Positions 26,659 to 30,736 of a DNA stretch of 64,000 bases are shown in pieces. Position 1 is the stretch's first letter, and each line of letters opens with the position of its first letter. The stretch comes from Allobosea sp. (GTDB taxonomy: Bacteria; Pseudomonadota; Alphaproteobacteria; Rhizobiales; Beijerinckiaceae), in the NCBI RefSeq assembly GCF_017308075.1, contig NZ_JAFKFX010000030.1, positions 186,001 to 250,000 of the forward strand, written 5' to 3'. The notes under the pieces were generated by a model, which saw nothing but the letters and a program-made list of their open reading frames with translations, did no database searches and was not told the origin of the DNA. The translations under genes were made by a program, and so were the position numbers.

Positions 26659-27198
26659 TCACATCGCATCCGGGCCGCGGCTCATCGCGGCGATGCCGGT
26701 GCGCGACACCTCGGTCAGGCCGACCACGGTCATCAGCTTGATGAAGCGCTCGATTTCCTCGGTCGAGCCAGTCAGCTCGAAGACGAAGGAGGTCAGCGAG
26801 GCATCGAGGGTGCGGGCGCCGAAGGCCGAGGCGAGACGCATCGCCTCGACGCGGTGATCGCCCTTGCCGACGACCTTGAGCAGGCAGAGCTCGCGCTCCA
26901 GCGCCTCGCCCTGCAGGGTCAGGTCAACGACGCGGTGCACCGGCACCAGCCGGTCGAGATGCGCCTTGATCTGGTCGATGACGCTCGCCGTGCCGGAGGT
27001 CACCACCGTGATGCGCGAGATGTGCTTCTCATGCTCGGTCTCGGAGACGGTCAGGCTCTCGATATTGTAGCCACGGCCGGAGAACAGCCCGGCGATCCGG
27101 GCCAGGACGCCGGGTTCGTTGTCGACGATCACCGCCAGCGTGTGACGGGCGATCGGCTGGGCGGTCGGGGCGGTCGGATAATGCGTCGTGTTCATCAT
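26659..27198 (-). CDS. ilvN: Acetolactate synthase small (regulatory) subunit
   Basis: Predicted 179 aa with an ACT domain (HTLAVIVDNEPGVLARIAGLFSGRGYNIESLTV near residues 18-50), the valine-binding feedback module, and the family's C-terminal half (SAFGARTLDASLTSFVFELTG). Start codons 27198 and 27195 are adjacent; the GST stop (27195-27197) overlaps, so translation of ilvN is coupled to GST. It works with IlvB (28757) to control acetolactate formation, yet ilvB and ilvN are separated by a racemase and a GST gene, which is unusual. Confidence 0.92.
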   Translation of the reverse strand: MMNTTHYPTAPTAQPIARHTLAVIVDNEPGVLARIAGLFSGRGYNIESLTVSETEHEKHISRITVVTSGTASVIDQIKAHLDRLVPVHRVVDLTLQGEALERELCLLKVVGKGDHRVEAMRLASAFGARTLDASLTSFVFELTGSTEEIERFIKLMTVVGLTEVSRTGIAAMSRGPDAM

Positions 27199-27905
27199 TG
27201 GGCCTTGCTGCGGCTGAGATGGGGGCGAAAATCCTCGAGGACCGGCTCGTCGGCCTCGTCCTCCTCGATGATCCAGGGTTCGGCGAGCGCGGCCGTGCGC
27301 CAGGACTTGTAGCCGCGCGTCGCCTGTACCGCCTCGGCATAGGCGGCACTGACGGGGTCGAGCCCGATGCCGTAACCGGCGAAGCGCGCCACGACCGGCG
27401 CGAACATCGCGTCCGCGGCGCCGAAGGCACCGAACAGGAAGGGCCCACCCTCCCCGAACCGAGCCCTGGCGTCCCGCCAGATCGCGGTGATGCGCGCCAC
27501 ATCGGCGGCGACGCTGGGGCCGCGGTCGCGCGCGTGGAACCCGCGCCCCAGATTCATCGGGCAGGCGCCGCGCAGGGCCGCGAAGCCGGCATGCATTTCG
27601 GCCGCGATCGAACGCGCCATGGCGCGTGCCGCCCGCTCGCGCGGCCAGACCGGCAGCTCGGGCCTGAGTTCGGCGACATGGTCCATGATCGCCAGCGTTT
27701 CCCAGACCTGGATCTCGCCGTCGAGCAGCGCCGGCACCTTGCCGGCCGGAGTGAAGGCCGAGATCGCGCGCTTCCATTCGGGATCGTCGAAGGTCTGCCC
27801 GAACGGGATCAGGACCTCCTCGAAAGGGATGCCGAGCTCGGTTAGCAGCAGCCAGGGCCGCAGCGACCAGGACGAGTAGGTCTTGTTGGCGATGACCAGT
27901 TTCAT
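27195..27905 (-). CDS. Glutathione S-transferase family protein
   Basis: Predicted 236 aa with the thioredoxin-like N-terminal domain (KLVIANKTYSSWSLRPWLLL) followed by an all-helical C-terminal domain. The N-terminal active site is a Ser/Tyr type with TYSSWS, a pattern found in the YfcF-like group. It probably conjugates or reduces an organic substrate with glutathione. Overlaps the racemase gene (27902) and ilvN start by four bases each, so all three are co-translated. The insertion into the ilvB-ilvN pair is a notable oddity. Confidence 0.82.
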   Translation of the reverse strand: MKLVIANKTYSSWSLRPWLLLTELGIPFEEVLIPFGQTFDDPEWKRAISAFTPAGKVPALLDGEIQVWETLAIMDHVAELRPELPVWPRERAARAMARSIAAEMHAGFAALRGACPMNLGRGFHARDRGPSVAADVARITAIWRDARARFGEGGPFLFGAFGAADAMFAPVVARFAGYGIGLDPVSAAYAEAVQATRGYKSWRTAALAEPWIIEEDEADEPVLEDFRPHLSRSKAQ

Positions 27906-28615
27906 GCCGCGACCTGCTCCGACAGGTCAGCAGCGAAATCGAGAGCGGCATCGACGTGCAGCGCCGTCGTGTCGAACACCGGCTGGGCGAAATCGGACTG
28001 TGAGAGCAGCAGCGTGATCTCGGTGCAGCCCAGAATCACGCCGTCGGCGCCCTCCTCCCGGACCACCCGATCGACGATCTCGCGATAGCGCGCCTTCGAT
28101 ACCGGCTCGACCCGGCCGCGACAGAGTTCCTCATAGATGATGCGATGGACCTCACCCCGCTCCGTCTCGTCCGGCACGAGTGCCTCGACGCCGAAGGCGG
28201 CCAGCCTATCGCGATAGAAGCGCTGCTCCATGGTGAAGCGCGTCGCCAGCAGCAGCGGCCGGCGGCTCTGCGTCTTGCGGATCGCCTTGGCGGTGACGTC
28301 GGCGAGATGCAGGAAAGGCAGGTTCGTCGCCTGGGTGATCTGGTCGGCGAGCTTGTGCATGGTGTTGGTCGCCAGCACGATGCAGGAGGCACCACCGCTT
28401 TCCAGGCGACGCGCGCTGTTGGCCATCGCCGCGCCGGCAGACGCCCAATCCCCGGCCGCCTGCATTTCGGCGATCGGCGAGAAATCGACAGAATGCAGGA
28501 GGATATCGGCCGAGTGCAGCCCGCCTTGGCGCCGCCGCACCCCCTCGTTCAGCAGCCGGTAATAGACCGCCGTCGATTCCCAGCTCATCCCGCCGATCAG
28601 GCCGATGGTCGCCAT
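27902..28615 (-). CDS. Aspartate/glutamate racemase family protein (YgeA-like)
   Basis: Predicted 237 aa. N-terminal MATIGLIGGMSWESTAVYY is the family start; the first active-site segment is IVLATNTMHKLAD, with Thr where classical members have Cys, and the second is GVILGCTEITLLL with the catalytic Cys. As I remember it, the E. coli broad-range amino acid racemase YgeA also uses a Thr/Cys pair, so an L- to D- or D- to L-amino acid racemase of that kind is likely. Substrate unknown. It lies between ilvB and GST, overlapping GST by four bases. Confidence 0.85.
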   Translation of the reverse strand: MATIGLIGGMSWESTAVYYRLLNEGVRRRQGGLHSADILLHSVDFSPIAEMQAAGDWASAGAAMANSARRLESGGASCIVLATNTMHKLADQITQATNLPFLHLADVTAKAIRKTQSRRPLLLATRFTMEQRFYRDRLAAFGVEALVPDETERGEVHRIIYEELCRGRVEPVSKARYREIVDRVVREEGADGVILGCTEITLLLSQSDFAQPVFDTTALHVDAALDFAADLSEQVAA

Positions 28616-28756: not shown

Positions 28757-30520
28757 TCAAACCAGCTGCTTGCCCTTGGCGTCGATGATGTCGCCGGTGT
28801 CGCCCTCGAAATCGGGCAGGATCATCTCGTTATGCGCCTTGCCGGACGGGATCATCGGGAAGCAGTTCTCCTCCTTGGCAACGAGGCAGTCGAAGATCAC
28901 CGGGCCGGGCGTCTCGATCATCTGCATGATCGCGGCGTCGAGCTCGGCCGGGTCGGAGCAGCGGATGCCCTTGCCACCATAGGCCTCCGCCAGCTTGACG
29001 AAGTCCGGCAGCGAGGCGGAGTAGCTCTCCGAATAGCGCCCGCCATGCAGCAGTTCCTGCCACTGGCGCACCATGCCCATGTACTCGTTGTTGAGGATGA
29101 AGATCTTGACCGGCAGCCGGTACTGAACCGCGGTCGACATCTCCTGCATGTTCATCAGGATCGAAGCCTCGCCAGCGATGTCGATGACGAGCGCGTCCGG
29201 GTTCTTCATCTGCGCGCCGATCGCCGCCGGCAGGCCATAGCCCATGGTGCCGAGCCCGCCCGAGGTCATCCAGCGGTTCGGCTCCTGGAAGCGGAAATAC
29301 TGGGCCGCCCACATCTGATGCTGGCCGACTTCGGTGGTGATGTAGGTGTTGCGATCCTTGCTCAGCTCATAGAGGCGCTCGATCGCATATTGCGGCTTGA
29401 TCACCGAGCCGGACTGCTTGTAGCCGAGGCTGTTGCGCGCGCGCCAGCCATCGATCTGCGTCCACCAGGCGGTCAGCGCCGTCTTGTCGATCTGCGGCGA
29501 GGTTTCGCGCCAGATCCGGACCATGTCTTCGAGCACATGGGCGCAGTCGCCGACGATGCCGATATCGACCTTGACGTTCTTGTTGATCGAGGACGGGTCG
29601 ATATCGATGTGGATCTTCTTCGAGCGCGGCGAGAAGGCATCGAGCCGGCCGGTGATGCGGTCGTCGAAGCGCGCACCGATATTGATCATGACGTCGCAGT
29701 CATGCATGGCGAGATTGGCTTCGTAGGTGCCGTGCATGCCGAGCATGCCGAGCCACTGCTTGTCGGCCGCCGGGAAGGCACCGAGGCCCATCAGCGTCGA
29801 GGTCACAGGATAGCCGGTCAGCCGCGCCAGCTCGCGCAGCAGCGCCGAGGCGTGCGGCCCGGAATTGATGACGCCGCCGCCGGTGTAGAACACCGGCTTC
29901 TTGGCCTTGGCGATCAGCTCGACCGCAGCCTTGATCTTGCCGAGGTCGCCCTTGACCGTCGGCCGATAGGTCTTGTGCTGGTTGTCGCGCGGCCGGCTAT
30001 AAGCGCCCGTCGCGAACTGGATGTCCTTGGGGATGTCGATCACGACCGGGCCGGGCCGGCCGTTTGCCGCGACATAGAAGGCCTCATGCAGGATGCGCGG
30101 CAGGTCGGCGATGCTCTTCACCAGATAGTTGTGCTTGGTGCAGGAGCGGGTGATGCCGACCGTGTCGCATTCCTGGAAGGCGTCCGAGCCGATCAGATGG
30201 GTCGGGACCTGGCCGGTGATGACGACGAGCGGGATCGAGTCGAGCAGCGCATCGGTCAGGCCGGTGACCGCATTGGTCGCCCCGGGGCCCGAGGTGACGA
30301 GGACGCAGCCGACCTTGCCGGCGCCGGAGCGGGCATAGCCCTCGGCCGCATGGACCGCACCCTGCTCGTGCCGAACGAGCACATGCTTGACCTTCTCCTG
30401 CTGGAAGAGCGCGTCATAGATCGGCAGCACCGCACCGCCGGGATAGCCGAAGAGATGCTCGACGCCCTGATCCTGAAGTGCGCGAACGACCATTTCGGCG
30501 CCAGTCATCATCTCGCTCAT
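28757..30520 (-). CDS. ilvB: Acetolactate synthase large (catalytic) subunit
   Basis: Predicted 587-aa thiamine-diphosphate enzyme that makes acetolactate or acetohydroxybutyrate, the first common step of branched-chain amino acid synthesis. Contains the catalytic-Glu region (LFGYPGGAVLPIYDAL with GGA) in the N-terminal half and the TPP-Mg binding region with IAGEASILMNMQE plus NNEYMGMVRQWQE near the C-terminus. ATG 30520 has GGAGACC at a good distance; the frame is open to 30571. Upstream is a 120-bp leader with an 11-residue peptide and a terminator, so transcription is under attenuation. Partner IlvN is at 26659. Confidence 0.96.
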   Translation of the reverse strand: MSEMMTGAEMVVRALQDQGVEHLFGYPGGAVLPIYDALFQQEKVKHVLVRHEQGAVHAAEGYARSGAGKVGCVLVTSGPGATNAVTGLTDALLDSIPLVVITGQVPTHLIGSDAFQECDTVGITRSCTKHNYLVKSIADLPRILHEAFYVAANGRPGPVVIDIPKDIQFATGAYSRPRDNQHKTYRPTVKGDLGKIKAAVELIAKAKKPVFYTGGGVINSGPHASALLRELARLTGYPVTSTLMGLGAFPAADKQWLGMLGMHGTYEANLAMHDCDVMINIGARFDDRITGRLDAFSPRSKKIHIDIDPSSINKNVKVDIGIVGDCAHVLEDMVRIWRETSPQIDKTALTAWWTQIDGWRARNSLGYKQSGSVIKPQYAIERLYELSKDRNTYITTEVGQHQMWAAQYFRFQEPNRWMTSGGLGTMGYGLPAAIGAQMKNPDALVIDIAGEASILMNMQEMSTAVQYRLPVKIFILNNEYMGMVRQWQELLHGGRYSESYSASLPDFVKLAEAYGGKGIRCSDPAELDAAIMQMIETPGPVIFDCLVAKEENCFPMIPSGKAHNEMILPDFEGDTGDIIDAKGKQLV

Positions 30521-30572: not shown

Positions 30573-30595
30573 AAAAAAGGCCCTCTGAGGGGCCT
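30573..30595 (-). terminator. Attenuator terminator in the ilvB leader
   Basis: Minus-strand RNA has GGCCC and GGGCC around a CTCAGA loop (5 bp; 6 with A-T), then six T residues (30573-30578). It is located 52 nt before the ilvB start codon and 46 nt after the leader stop, which fits an attenuator that ends transcription when branched-chain amino acids are plentiful. Confidence 0.8.
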
Positions 30596-30652
30596 GGGCG
30601 TGCGCTGGCGTTGGGGACACCCGGTTTGTTAAACCGGCCCCTACCAGCGCAC
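30596..30652 (-). promoter_or_regulatory. Alternative RNA structures of the ilvB attenuator
   Basis: Minus-strand RNA segments: GTGCGCTGG (30644-30652) pairs with CCAGCGCAC (30600-30608), 9 bp; the hairpin CCGGTTT/AAACCGG lies within (30621-30637); and AGGGGCC (30636-30642) can instead pair with GGCCCCT, the 5' arm of the terminator (30588-30594). These mutually exclusive pairings are the classic make-up of a terminator/antiterminator switch. GTGCGCTGG covers the last codons of the leader peptide, so ribosome position would decide the outcome. Confidence 0.7.
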
Positions 30653-30676
30653 CTTTACGAGAATGAGCTTGCGCAT
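30641..30676 (-). CDS. ilvL: Branched-chain amino acid leader peptide for ilvB attenuation
   Basis: An 11-residue ORF, MRKLILVKVRW, with Leu, Ile, Leu, Val and Val among 11 residues, the amino acids produced by the downstream enzyme. Codons include CTC, ATT, CTC, GTA and GTG; GTA and ATT are unfavoured in this genome. An AAGGG ribosome site precedes it. The stop is followed by the antiterminator and terminator structures described separately. A good promoter (30708-30736) lies 32 nt upstream. I consider this a real leader despite its length. Confidence 0.78.
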   Translation of the reverse strand: MRKLILVKVRW

Positions 30677-30707
30677 GTCGCGCCCTTGCAGTGAAAGAAT
30701 TTGGCGG

Positions 30708-30736
30708 ACGCTAGACGAGCGCCGCCGGCCGGTCAA
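30708..30736 (-). promoter_or_regulatory. Candidate sigma-70 promoter for ilvB leader
   Basis: On the minus strand, TTGACC (30731-30736) and TAGCGT (30708-30713) are separated by exactly 17 bp. Transcription would start near 30701, about 25 nt before the leader ATG. The -10 is weak, so moderate confidence. Confidence 0.5.

Follow-up and report, generated by a model that had tools for sequence, protein, structure and literature searches.

A probable ribosome-mediated attenuator of the classical ilv type before ilvB in Allobosea, with a GTA valine codon as predicted main sensor

Introduction

In the trp attenuator of Escherichia coli, a leader transcript follows a three-segment logic in which the position of the ribosome chooses between an antiterminator and a terminator. 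For alphaproteobacterial ilvB, too, an attenuator is on record: the one in the ilvBN leader of Caulobacter crescentus was described by Tarleton, Malakooti and Ely in 1994 (as cited in PMC4117421), and an alphaproteobacterial "ilvB leader peptide" had been described by Vitreschak et al. in 2004 (as cited in PMC1273637). The element studied here is therefore a further member of that known kind. As the citing paper describes it, the C. crescentus leader resembles ours in belonging to an Alphaproteobacterium, in its target gene, in its tandem Ile and Val leader codons and in its rho-independent terminator (PMC4117421); the likeness to Caulobacter is thus to that paper's description, and the Caulobacteraceae relatives in the present set (L047, L051 and L059) have leaders of 11-15 amino acids. 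The ilvB leader peptide of Vitreschak et al. is, in the citing paper's words, alphaproteobacterial and so from the same bacterial class (PMC1273637). The 11-codon form and the GTA rule presented below come from the present analysis. The trp attenuator leader (trpL/rnTrpL) shares the three-segment logic and, in the S. meliloti accounts consulted, gives a stable terminated RNA; it differs from our leader in that the codons there are Trp codons. Our search of the literature found no study of an ilvB leader element in the genus under study.

Results

Architecture of the ilvB leader

By the window we mean the whole 64-kb stretch of Allobosea DNA that was analysed (64,000 nucleotides). Its minus-strand ORF at 30676-30641 (ATG CGC AAG CTC ATT CTC GTA AAG GTG CGC TGG TAG) encodes MRKLILVKVRW, and it has two features of an attenuator, being a short ORF rich in codons for the pathway's products just before a biosynthetic gene and being separated from that gene, ilvB, by an intrinsic terminator. 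The parts of the leader and the genes behind it are as follows.

30683-30687, minus strand: AAGGG, probable weak Shine-Dalgarno sequence of the leader ORF (from the sequence)
30641-30676, minus strand: leader ORF MRKLILVKVRW with stop codon TAG (sequence; homologue in 67 of 67 same-genus genomes)
30656-30658, minus strand: codon 7, GTA (Val), main predicted stall codon (GTA in 59 of 59 distinct leaders)
30643-30652, minus strand: segment a, 5' arm of the protector stem, codons 9-11 plus the T of the stop codon (folding, alignment)
30636-30642, minus strand: segment b, AGGGGCC, 5' arm of the antiterminator (nascent-RNA folding, alignment)
30613-30641, minus strand: inner hairpin within the protector stem, sequestering segment b (folding, alignment)
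30600-30609, minus strand: segment a', 3' arm of the protector stem with CCAGCGCAC as its core (folding, alignment)
30588-30594, minus strand: segment b', GGCCCCT, 3' arm of the antiterminator, overlapping the 5' arm of the terminator (main-clade pairing counts)
30573-30595, minus strand: intrinsic terminator, 30595-30590 paired with 30583-30578, T run 30578-30573 (sequence, folding)
28757-30520, minus strand: ilvB, acetolactate synthase large subunit, the regulated gene (three TPP-enzyme domains, PF02775, PF00205, PF02776)
26659-27195, minus strand: ilvN, acetolactate synthase small subunit, downstream of ilvB in the same direction (PF10369 and PF22629 over 26659-27186; start codon near 27195 inferred)

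The protector stem joins GTGCGCTGG to CCAGCGCAC, AGGGGCC and GGCCCCT are complementary, and the terminator hairpin AGGCCC-CTCAGA-GGGCCT is followed by six T before the ilvB start at 30520. The leader folds at -47.9 kcal/mol (z -3.61), and none of 200 shuffles was equally stable. Sequence and folding thus bear out what the sequence-only reading had described here, namely an 11-residue ORF, two competing pairings and a terminator with six T before ilvB. The window comes from a Bosea-type soil bacterium, its IlvB protein being 93% identical to two Bosea sp. records.

Genes for an Asp/Glu racemase and a glutathione S-transferase (GST) lie between ilvB and ilvN (27195-28615 of the window, minus strand) and point in the same direction. 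Among loci L002-L030, checked over at most 1500 bases of downstream flank, both genes occur downstream of ilvB in L002, L003, L004 and L007, and the GST gene alone in L006 and L008.

Conservation across the genus and the order

A DNA search matched the leader in 60 of 67 same-genus genomes, and in the remaining seven, once the ilvB start had been located, a leader built alike, though diverged and 15 codons long, was found there. An ATG leader, GTA as codon 7 and the terminator were present in all 73 same-genus loci inspected; with several genomes represented twice, these amount to 59 distinct sequences, made up of 51 main-clade leaders and 8 of the 15-codon form. The terminator is found in each of the 59, with a mean of -11.2 kcal/mol. 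Conservation in close relatives, proposed in the sequence-only reading as the check on an attenuator, accordingly came out in its favour, the ORF and the terminator being kept in 67 of 67 genomes.

Outside the genus, an automatic rule picked a BCAA (branched-chain amino acid) leader ORF plus terminator at 74 of 98 ilvB loci, at least three of these picks being doubtful (L011, L022 and L094, the last of which lies outside the named loci and was retained in the 74); L010 and L110 are apparently one contig that was fetched twice. At loci where nothing was picked, a leader may nonetheless exist whose terminator went unrecognised; BCAA ORFs are indeed present in L023, L026, L028 and L038. A leader search at a 33% BCAA threshold missed many relatives, and looser rules were used for the counts. 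Under stricter filters (E <= 0.01), a covariance model built from the 59 sequences matched 115 of the 297 genomes searched in the order.

Chance might be thought to have placed a spurious ORF beside hairpins, short BCAA-rich ORFs alone being common (31 in the window on both strands). When such an ORF had to be followed by a terminator, the scan returned two places in the 64-kb window, the ilvB leader and 36608-36579; on both strands of 20 dinucleotide-shuffled versions of the window it returned two in all. An origin by chance is refuted by the conservation of the element at the same place in 67 of 67 same-genus genomes, with terminator and codons kept, and its probability is practically negligible.

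Covariation evidence within the genus is thin because the sequences of the a:a' stem are nearly identical; this stem is nearly invariant in the main clade, and the eight longer leaders are misaligned there. In the terminator, alignment pair 85:96 is C-G in 40 rows, T-G in 7, T-A in 1 and C-C in 11 rows that are gap-shifted.

One record, named Bosea sp. 117 (L031), differs from the Bosea of this genus both in its ilvB leader, MRNNIILIVGRRVAAEAA, and in its IlvB (76%). The leader is similar to the one in Ancylobacter L030, and the record is possibly misnamed.

A GTA codon as predicted main sensor

The regulatory codons are conserved, as in an attenuator: codons 5, 6 and 7 are Ile, Leu or Val in all 59 distinct leaders. 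Codon 7 is GTA in every one of them, a codon that accounts for 17 of 1007 Val codons (1.7%) in 37 long ORFs of the window, these background ORFs having been picked with GC3 above 0.75, a filter that itself lowers the share of A-ending codons. Around this core, codon 4 is Leu in 54 leaders (Phe in 3, Pro in 1 and Gln in 1), codon 8 is free to vary, and codon 9, which lies within the stem, is Val in 53.

The same leaning toward rare codons appears outside the genus. We counted codons in the BCAA runs of 52 named relatives, that is, of the 54 loci with a pick among the 78 named loci L004-L081 after L011 and L022 had been dropped, and compared them with the relatives' own ilvB genes, a background to which no GC3 filter was applied. 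GTA made up 58% of 107 Val codons against 1.4% in ilvB, ATT 62% of 66 Ile codons against 12%, and CTT 48% of 66 Leu codons against 5.5%. Biased regulatory codons are known from attenuators and are explained, in the account given in PMC1183508, by selective charging of tRNA isoacceptors; the preference for GTA, ATT and CTT over the common GTC, ATC and CTG in the 52 relatives suggests that particular isoacceptors are read here. Val-7 (GTA) is our predicted main sensor codon because two separate kinds of evidence, codon conservation in the 59 leaders and the modelled geometry described below, agree on it.

The sequence-only reading had also remarked that the leader is short and ends in Trp, which holds for the window. 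As for tryptophan sensing by this codon, we rejected that possibility: the residue is Trp in 50 of 59 leaders and Arg or Cys in 9 of 59, and its position lies in the stem. The final Trp is a by-product of that stem.

Pairing in nascent transcripts

Equilibrium folding of the full transcript with the ribosome as a block let the terminator win at every ribosome position (P 0.96-0.98), which means that any switch must be kinetic. A terminator dominant at equilibrium would also fit a constitutive element whose short ORF merely tunes basal ilvB expression without sensing amino acids, and a precedent pointing the same way is Streptomyces coelicolor, in which, as PMC1262725 reports it, codons of a candidate ilvB leader were replaced and regulation was unaffected. 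We kept the attenuator reading despite the equilibrium result because the 3' arm of the terminator is made last, and the switch was modelled on nascent RNA, using transcripts that end before this arm.

In the nascent RNA of the window, b:b' formed with the ribosomal A site at codons 7 and 8 and partly at codons 6 and 9, and no b:b' was seen with the A site at codons 2-5 or 10-12. The main clade behaved alike: at a footprint of 12 nt, P for b:b' exceeded 0.5 in 84, 98, 100 and 88% of the 51 leaders at codons 6, 7, 8 and 9, respectively; the share was 12% at codon 2, 0% at codons 3-5 and 2-8% at codons 10-13. Taken one by one, the seven b:b' pairs form in 48 to 51 of these 51 leaders, and the antiterminator with codon 7 in the A site forms in 50 of them (12-nt footprint). 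Across footprints of 9-16 nt, codon 7 stayed at 84-100% and was the sole codon inside the antiterminator window at all footprints, while Leu-4 entered only at the widest one (16 nt), in 0.37 of leaders. When the spacer of the window leader was shuffled, 4 of 500 shuffles scored as high. A mutually exclusive antiterminator set by ribosome position, a further attenuator feature, is thus seen for the window and the main clade in nascent RNA only.

These results narrow the stalling range of codons 4-9 proposed in the sequence-only reading: codons 6-9 stand at a 12-nt footprint and Val-7 at every footprint, but the range was too wide, Leu-4 being mostly outside it and less conserved. Two observations speak against a constitutive leader: what is conserved centres on codons 5-7, BCAA positions at which rare codons are used, next to drifting codons 4 and 8, and this codon window coincides with the antiterminator window. 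We regard such an element as quite improbable.

The same folding model showed no antiterminator window at codons 6-9 in 8 of the 59 leaders, those of the 15-codon form. In these, two or more positions of the b arm fail to match b', and the model pairs upstream weakly, mostly with the ribosome at about codons 11-13, which encode no BCAA. An alternative antiterminator of GGACC with GGTCC was considered by eye, and the modelled pairing fell mostly at non-BCAA codons. For relatives from other genera the model gives a less clean window, which often opens at or slightly after the last Val of the BCAA run.

Predicted promoter and leaderless forms

Upstream of the leader ORF the window contains a promoter-like pair, TTGACC-17-TAGCGT at 30736-30708.

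30731-30736, minus strand: -35 box TTGACC (sequence; conserved in same-genus upstream regions)
30708-30713, minus strand: -10 box TAGCGT, with the transcription start predicted at about 30700-30702 (same-genus comparison)

Of 67 distinct same-genus upstream regions, 60 have TTGACC-17 and then a TA hexamer (usually TAGCGT) at a distance of 30-32 nt from the leader ATG, and six, all with the 15-codon leader, have TTGACG-17-TAAC[CG]A 7 nt before the ATG; no promoter-like pair was found in the last one, a region cut by a contig end. The conservation of the pair implies that transcription probably begins upstream of or at the leader ORF, and it makes unlikely a start downstream of 30641, which the sequence-only reading had named as the case that would speak against an attenuator.

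Same-genus loci L100, L166-L171 and L173 carry the 15-codon leaders, whose peptides end in RRSRAV or RRKRAV. Except at L100 and L169, a distance of 7 nt separates the end of the promoter-like pair from the AUG at these loci; the leader mRNAs of the six loci concerned are therefore probably leaderless, but a 5' UTR of some 25 nt is predicted for the main clade. Boxes likewise end 6-8 nt before the ATG in 19 of 34 ilvB loci from the RF02502 search described below; in these 19 and in the six 15-codon regions, transcription likely starts at the AUG itself. Leaderless translation is on record for trpL of S. meliloti, according to PMC10117765.

Proposed mechanism

We conclude that the ilvB leader is very probably a ribosome-mediated transcription attenuator of the classical ilv type (probability about 0.92). 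Conservation, regulatory codons and nascent-RNA pairing agree with the ilv-type design that had been proposed from the sequence alone. Sequence, conservation, codon choice and pairing potential carry this reading, and from them we infer promoter use, translation, stalling and read-through in the following scheme. The promoter at about 30736-30708 would make the leader RNA, and a ribosome would translate the 11-codon ORF. With Val-tRNA (in part also Ile- or Leu-tRNA, at codon 6) plentiful, the ribosome would reach the stop codon and cover a and b, the terminator would form and RNA polymerase would halt before ilvB. With the charged tRNA scarce, the ribosome would wait with codon 7 (GTA) or codon 6 in the A site and thereby hold the protector stem a:a' open, b could pair with b' before the 3' arm of the terminator is made, and ilvB would be read through. 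If the leader is not translated, the protector stem would form, making termination the default.

Under this scheme, an enzyme for the synthesis of valine, leucine and isoleucine would be made only in a shortage of valine and, to some extent, of isoleucine or leucine. The element itself is textbook regulation; what the analysis singles out is one codon, GTA for Val, as the predicted main sensor, a proposal that is sharply testable.

RF02502 and copies before transporters

The window leader aligns end to end with RF02502 ("Rhizobiales sRNA Atu_C8"), scoring 28.2 bits, under the gathering cut-off of 50, with an E value of 4e-4 to 7e-4 on a short stretch and 0.0036 on the whole genome. The two have in common a place before ilvB, a leader, a protector stem and a terminator. 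Of 20 chosen relatives, 17 gave an RF02502 match above the cut-off at their ilvB leader, the exceptions being L004, L006 and L051.

Within 1279-1451 of each, match over the cut-off at the ilvB leader: L069, L062, L070, L072, L076, L077, L081, L073, L067
Likewise within 1279-1451 of each: L074, L075, L078, L060, L063, L061, L071, L039

In L069 the match runs from the G of the leader's AUG to a point just beyond the terminator; the L069 RNA therefore looks leaderless, in contrast to the 5' UTR of about 25 nt predicted for the Bosea main clade.

In 297 genomes of the order, RF02502 matched 178 at E <= 0.01, 48 of them over the cut-off. Control genomes gave 0 of 14 in one search and 1 of 14 in a later one, and this match, in Thermotoga maritima and below the cut-off, indicates that low RF02502 scores alone prove little. 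We fetched 30 loci, one best match per genome, and an ilvB relative follows in 28 of them.

The label of the family raises the question of whether the leader RNA is chiefly a trans-acting small RNA whose place before ilvB is incidental. The end-to-end match of the window and the 17 relatives above the cut-off favour this, and a dual role has a precedent in rnTrpL, the trp attenuator RNA of S. meliloti, as set out in PMC10117765 and PMC7143759. The neighbourhood argues otherwise, given the ilvB relative behind 28 of the 30 order-wide loci, and so does the BCAA leader ORF present in 34 of 34 examined loci with an ilvB relative, since neither an ORF nor codons for what the adjacent enzyme makes would be required of an sRNA. 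A reassignment to 5' UTRs has, moreover, been made for other Agrobacterium "sRNAs": by the account of Lee et al. 2013 (PMC3738593), three of the sRNAs of Wilms et al. were moved to 5' UTR leaders and 32 were flagged as parts of long 5' UTRs. A chiefly trans-acting RNA is in our judgement very improbable, and the "sRNA" label of RF02502 probably hides an attenuator. We claim no priority for equating the two; a literature search for Atu_C8 or RF02502 found no relevant paper.

Copies of the element also occur away from ilvB. The other two of the 30 fetched loci (L185 and L186) and two second copies (L204 and L206) all lie before transporters.

L185, 1501-1621: attenuator-like copy before a transporter
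L186, 1501-1621: attenuator-like copy before a transporter
L204, 203-322: attenuator-like copy before a transporter
L206, 3008-3128, minus strand: attenuator-like copy before a transporter

All four transporters, which are of the MFS type, have TIGR00710 (Bcr/CflA family) as their best NCBIfam model, and two of them score above its cut-off. A terminator and a leader ORF containing Val or Ile codons (MMIAIDMVVVGRRMGTAA, with GTC GTA GTA, is one example) are retained in the transporter-linked copies, and all four genomes also have an ilvB-linked copy. Judged from the sequences, this looks like one attenuator copied to another gene. In the nine genomes with more than one RF02502 match, the extra copy lies before a Bcr/CflA-type transporter in four and before a second ilvB-like gene in three, an assignment that leaves out low-scoring matches of G026 and G513 and the third match of G505.

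Taken together, RF02502 may be an order-wide BCAA attenuator that in some genomes was copied as a cassette before Bcr/CflA-type transporters, where it would turn on an efflux-type pump at valine or isoleucine shortage, and the terminated leader may in addition act in trans like rnTrpL; we offer this joint reading tentatively, at somewhat less than even odds. Re-describing RF02502 as an attenuator leader with copies before transporters would enlarge the range of genes that are controlled in this way.

Two genomes of one genus (L208 and L209) have two ilvB-like genes around ilvN with an RF02502-like leader before each, and a third genome (L205) has a further RF02502-like copy before a more distant ilvB relative (62% identity).
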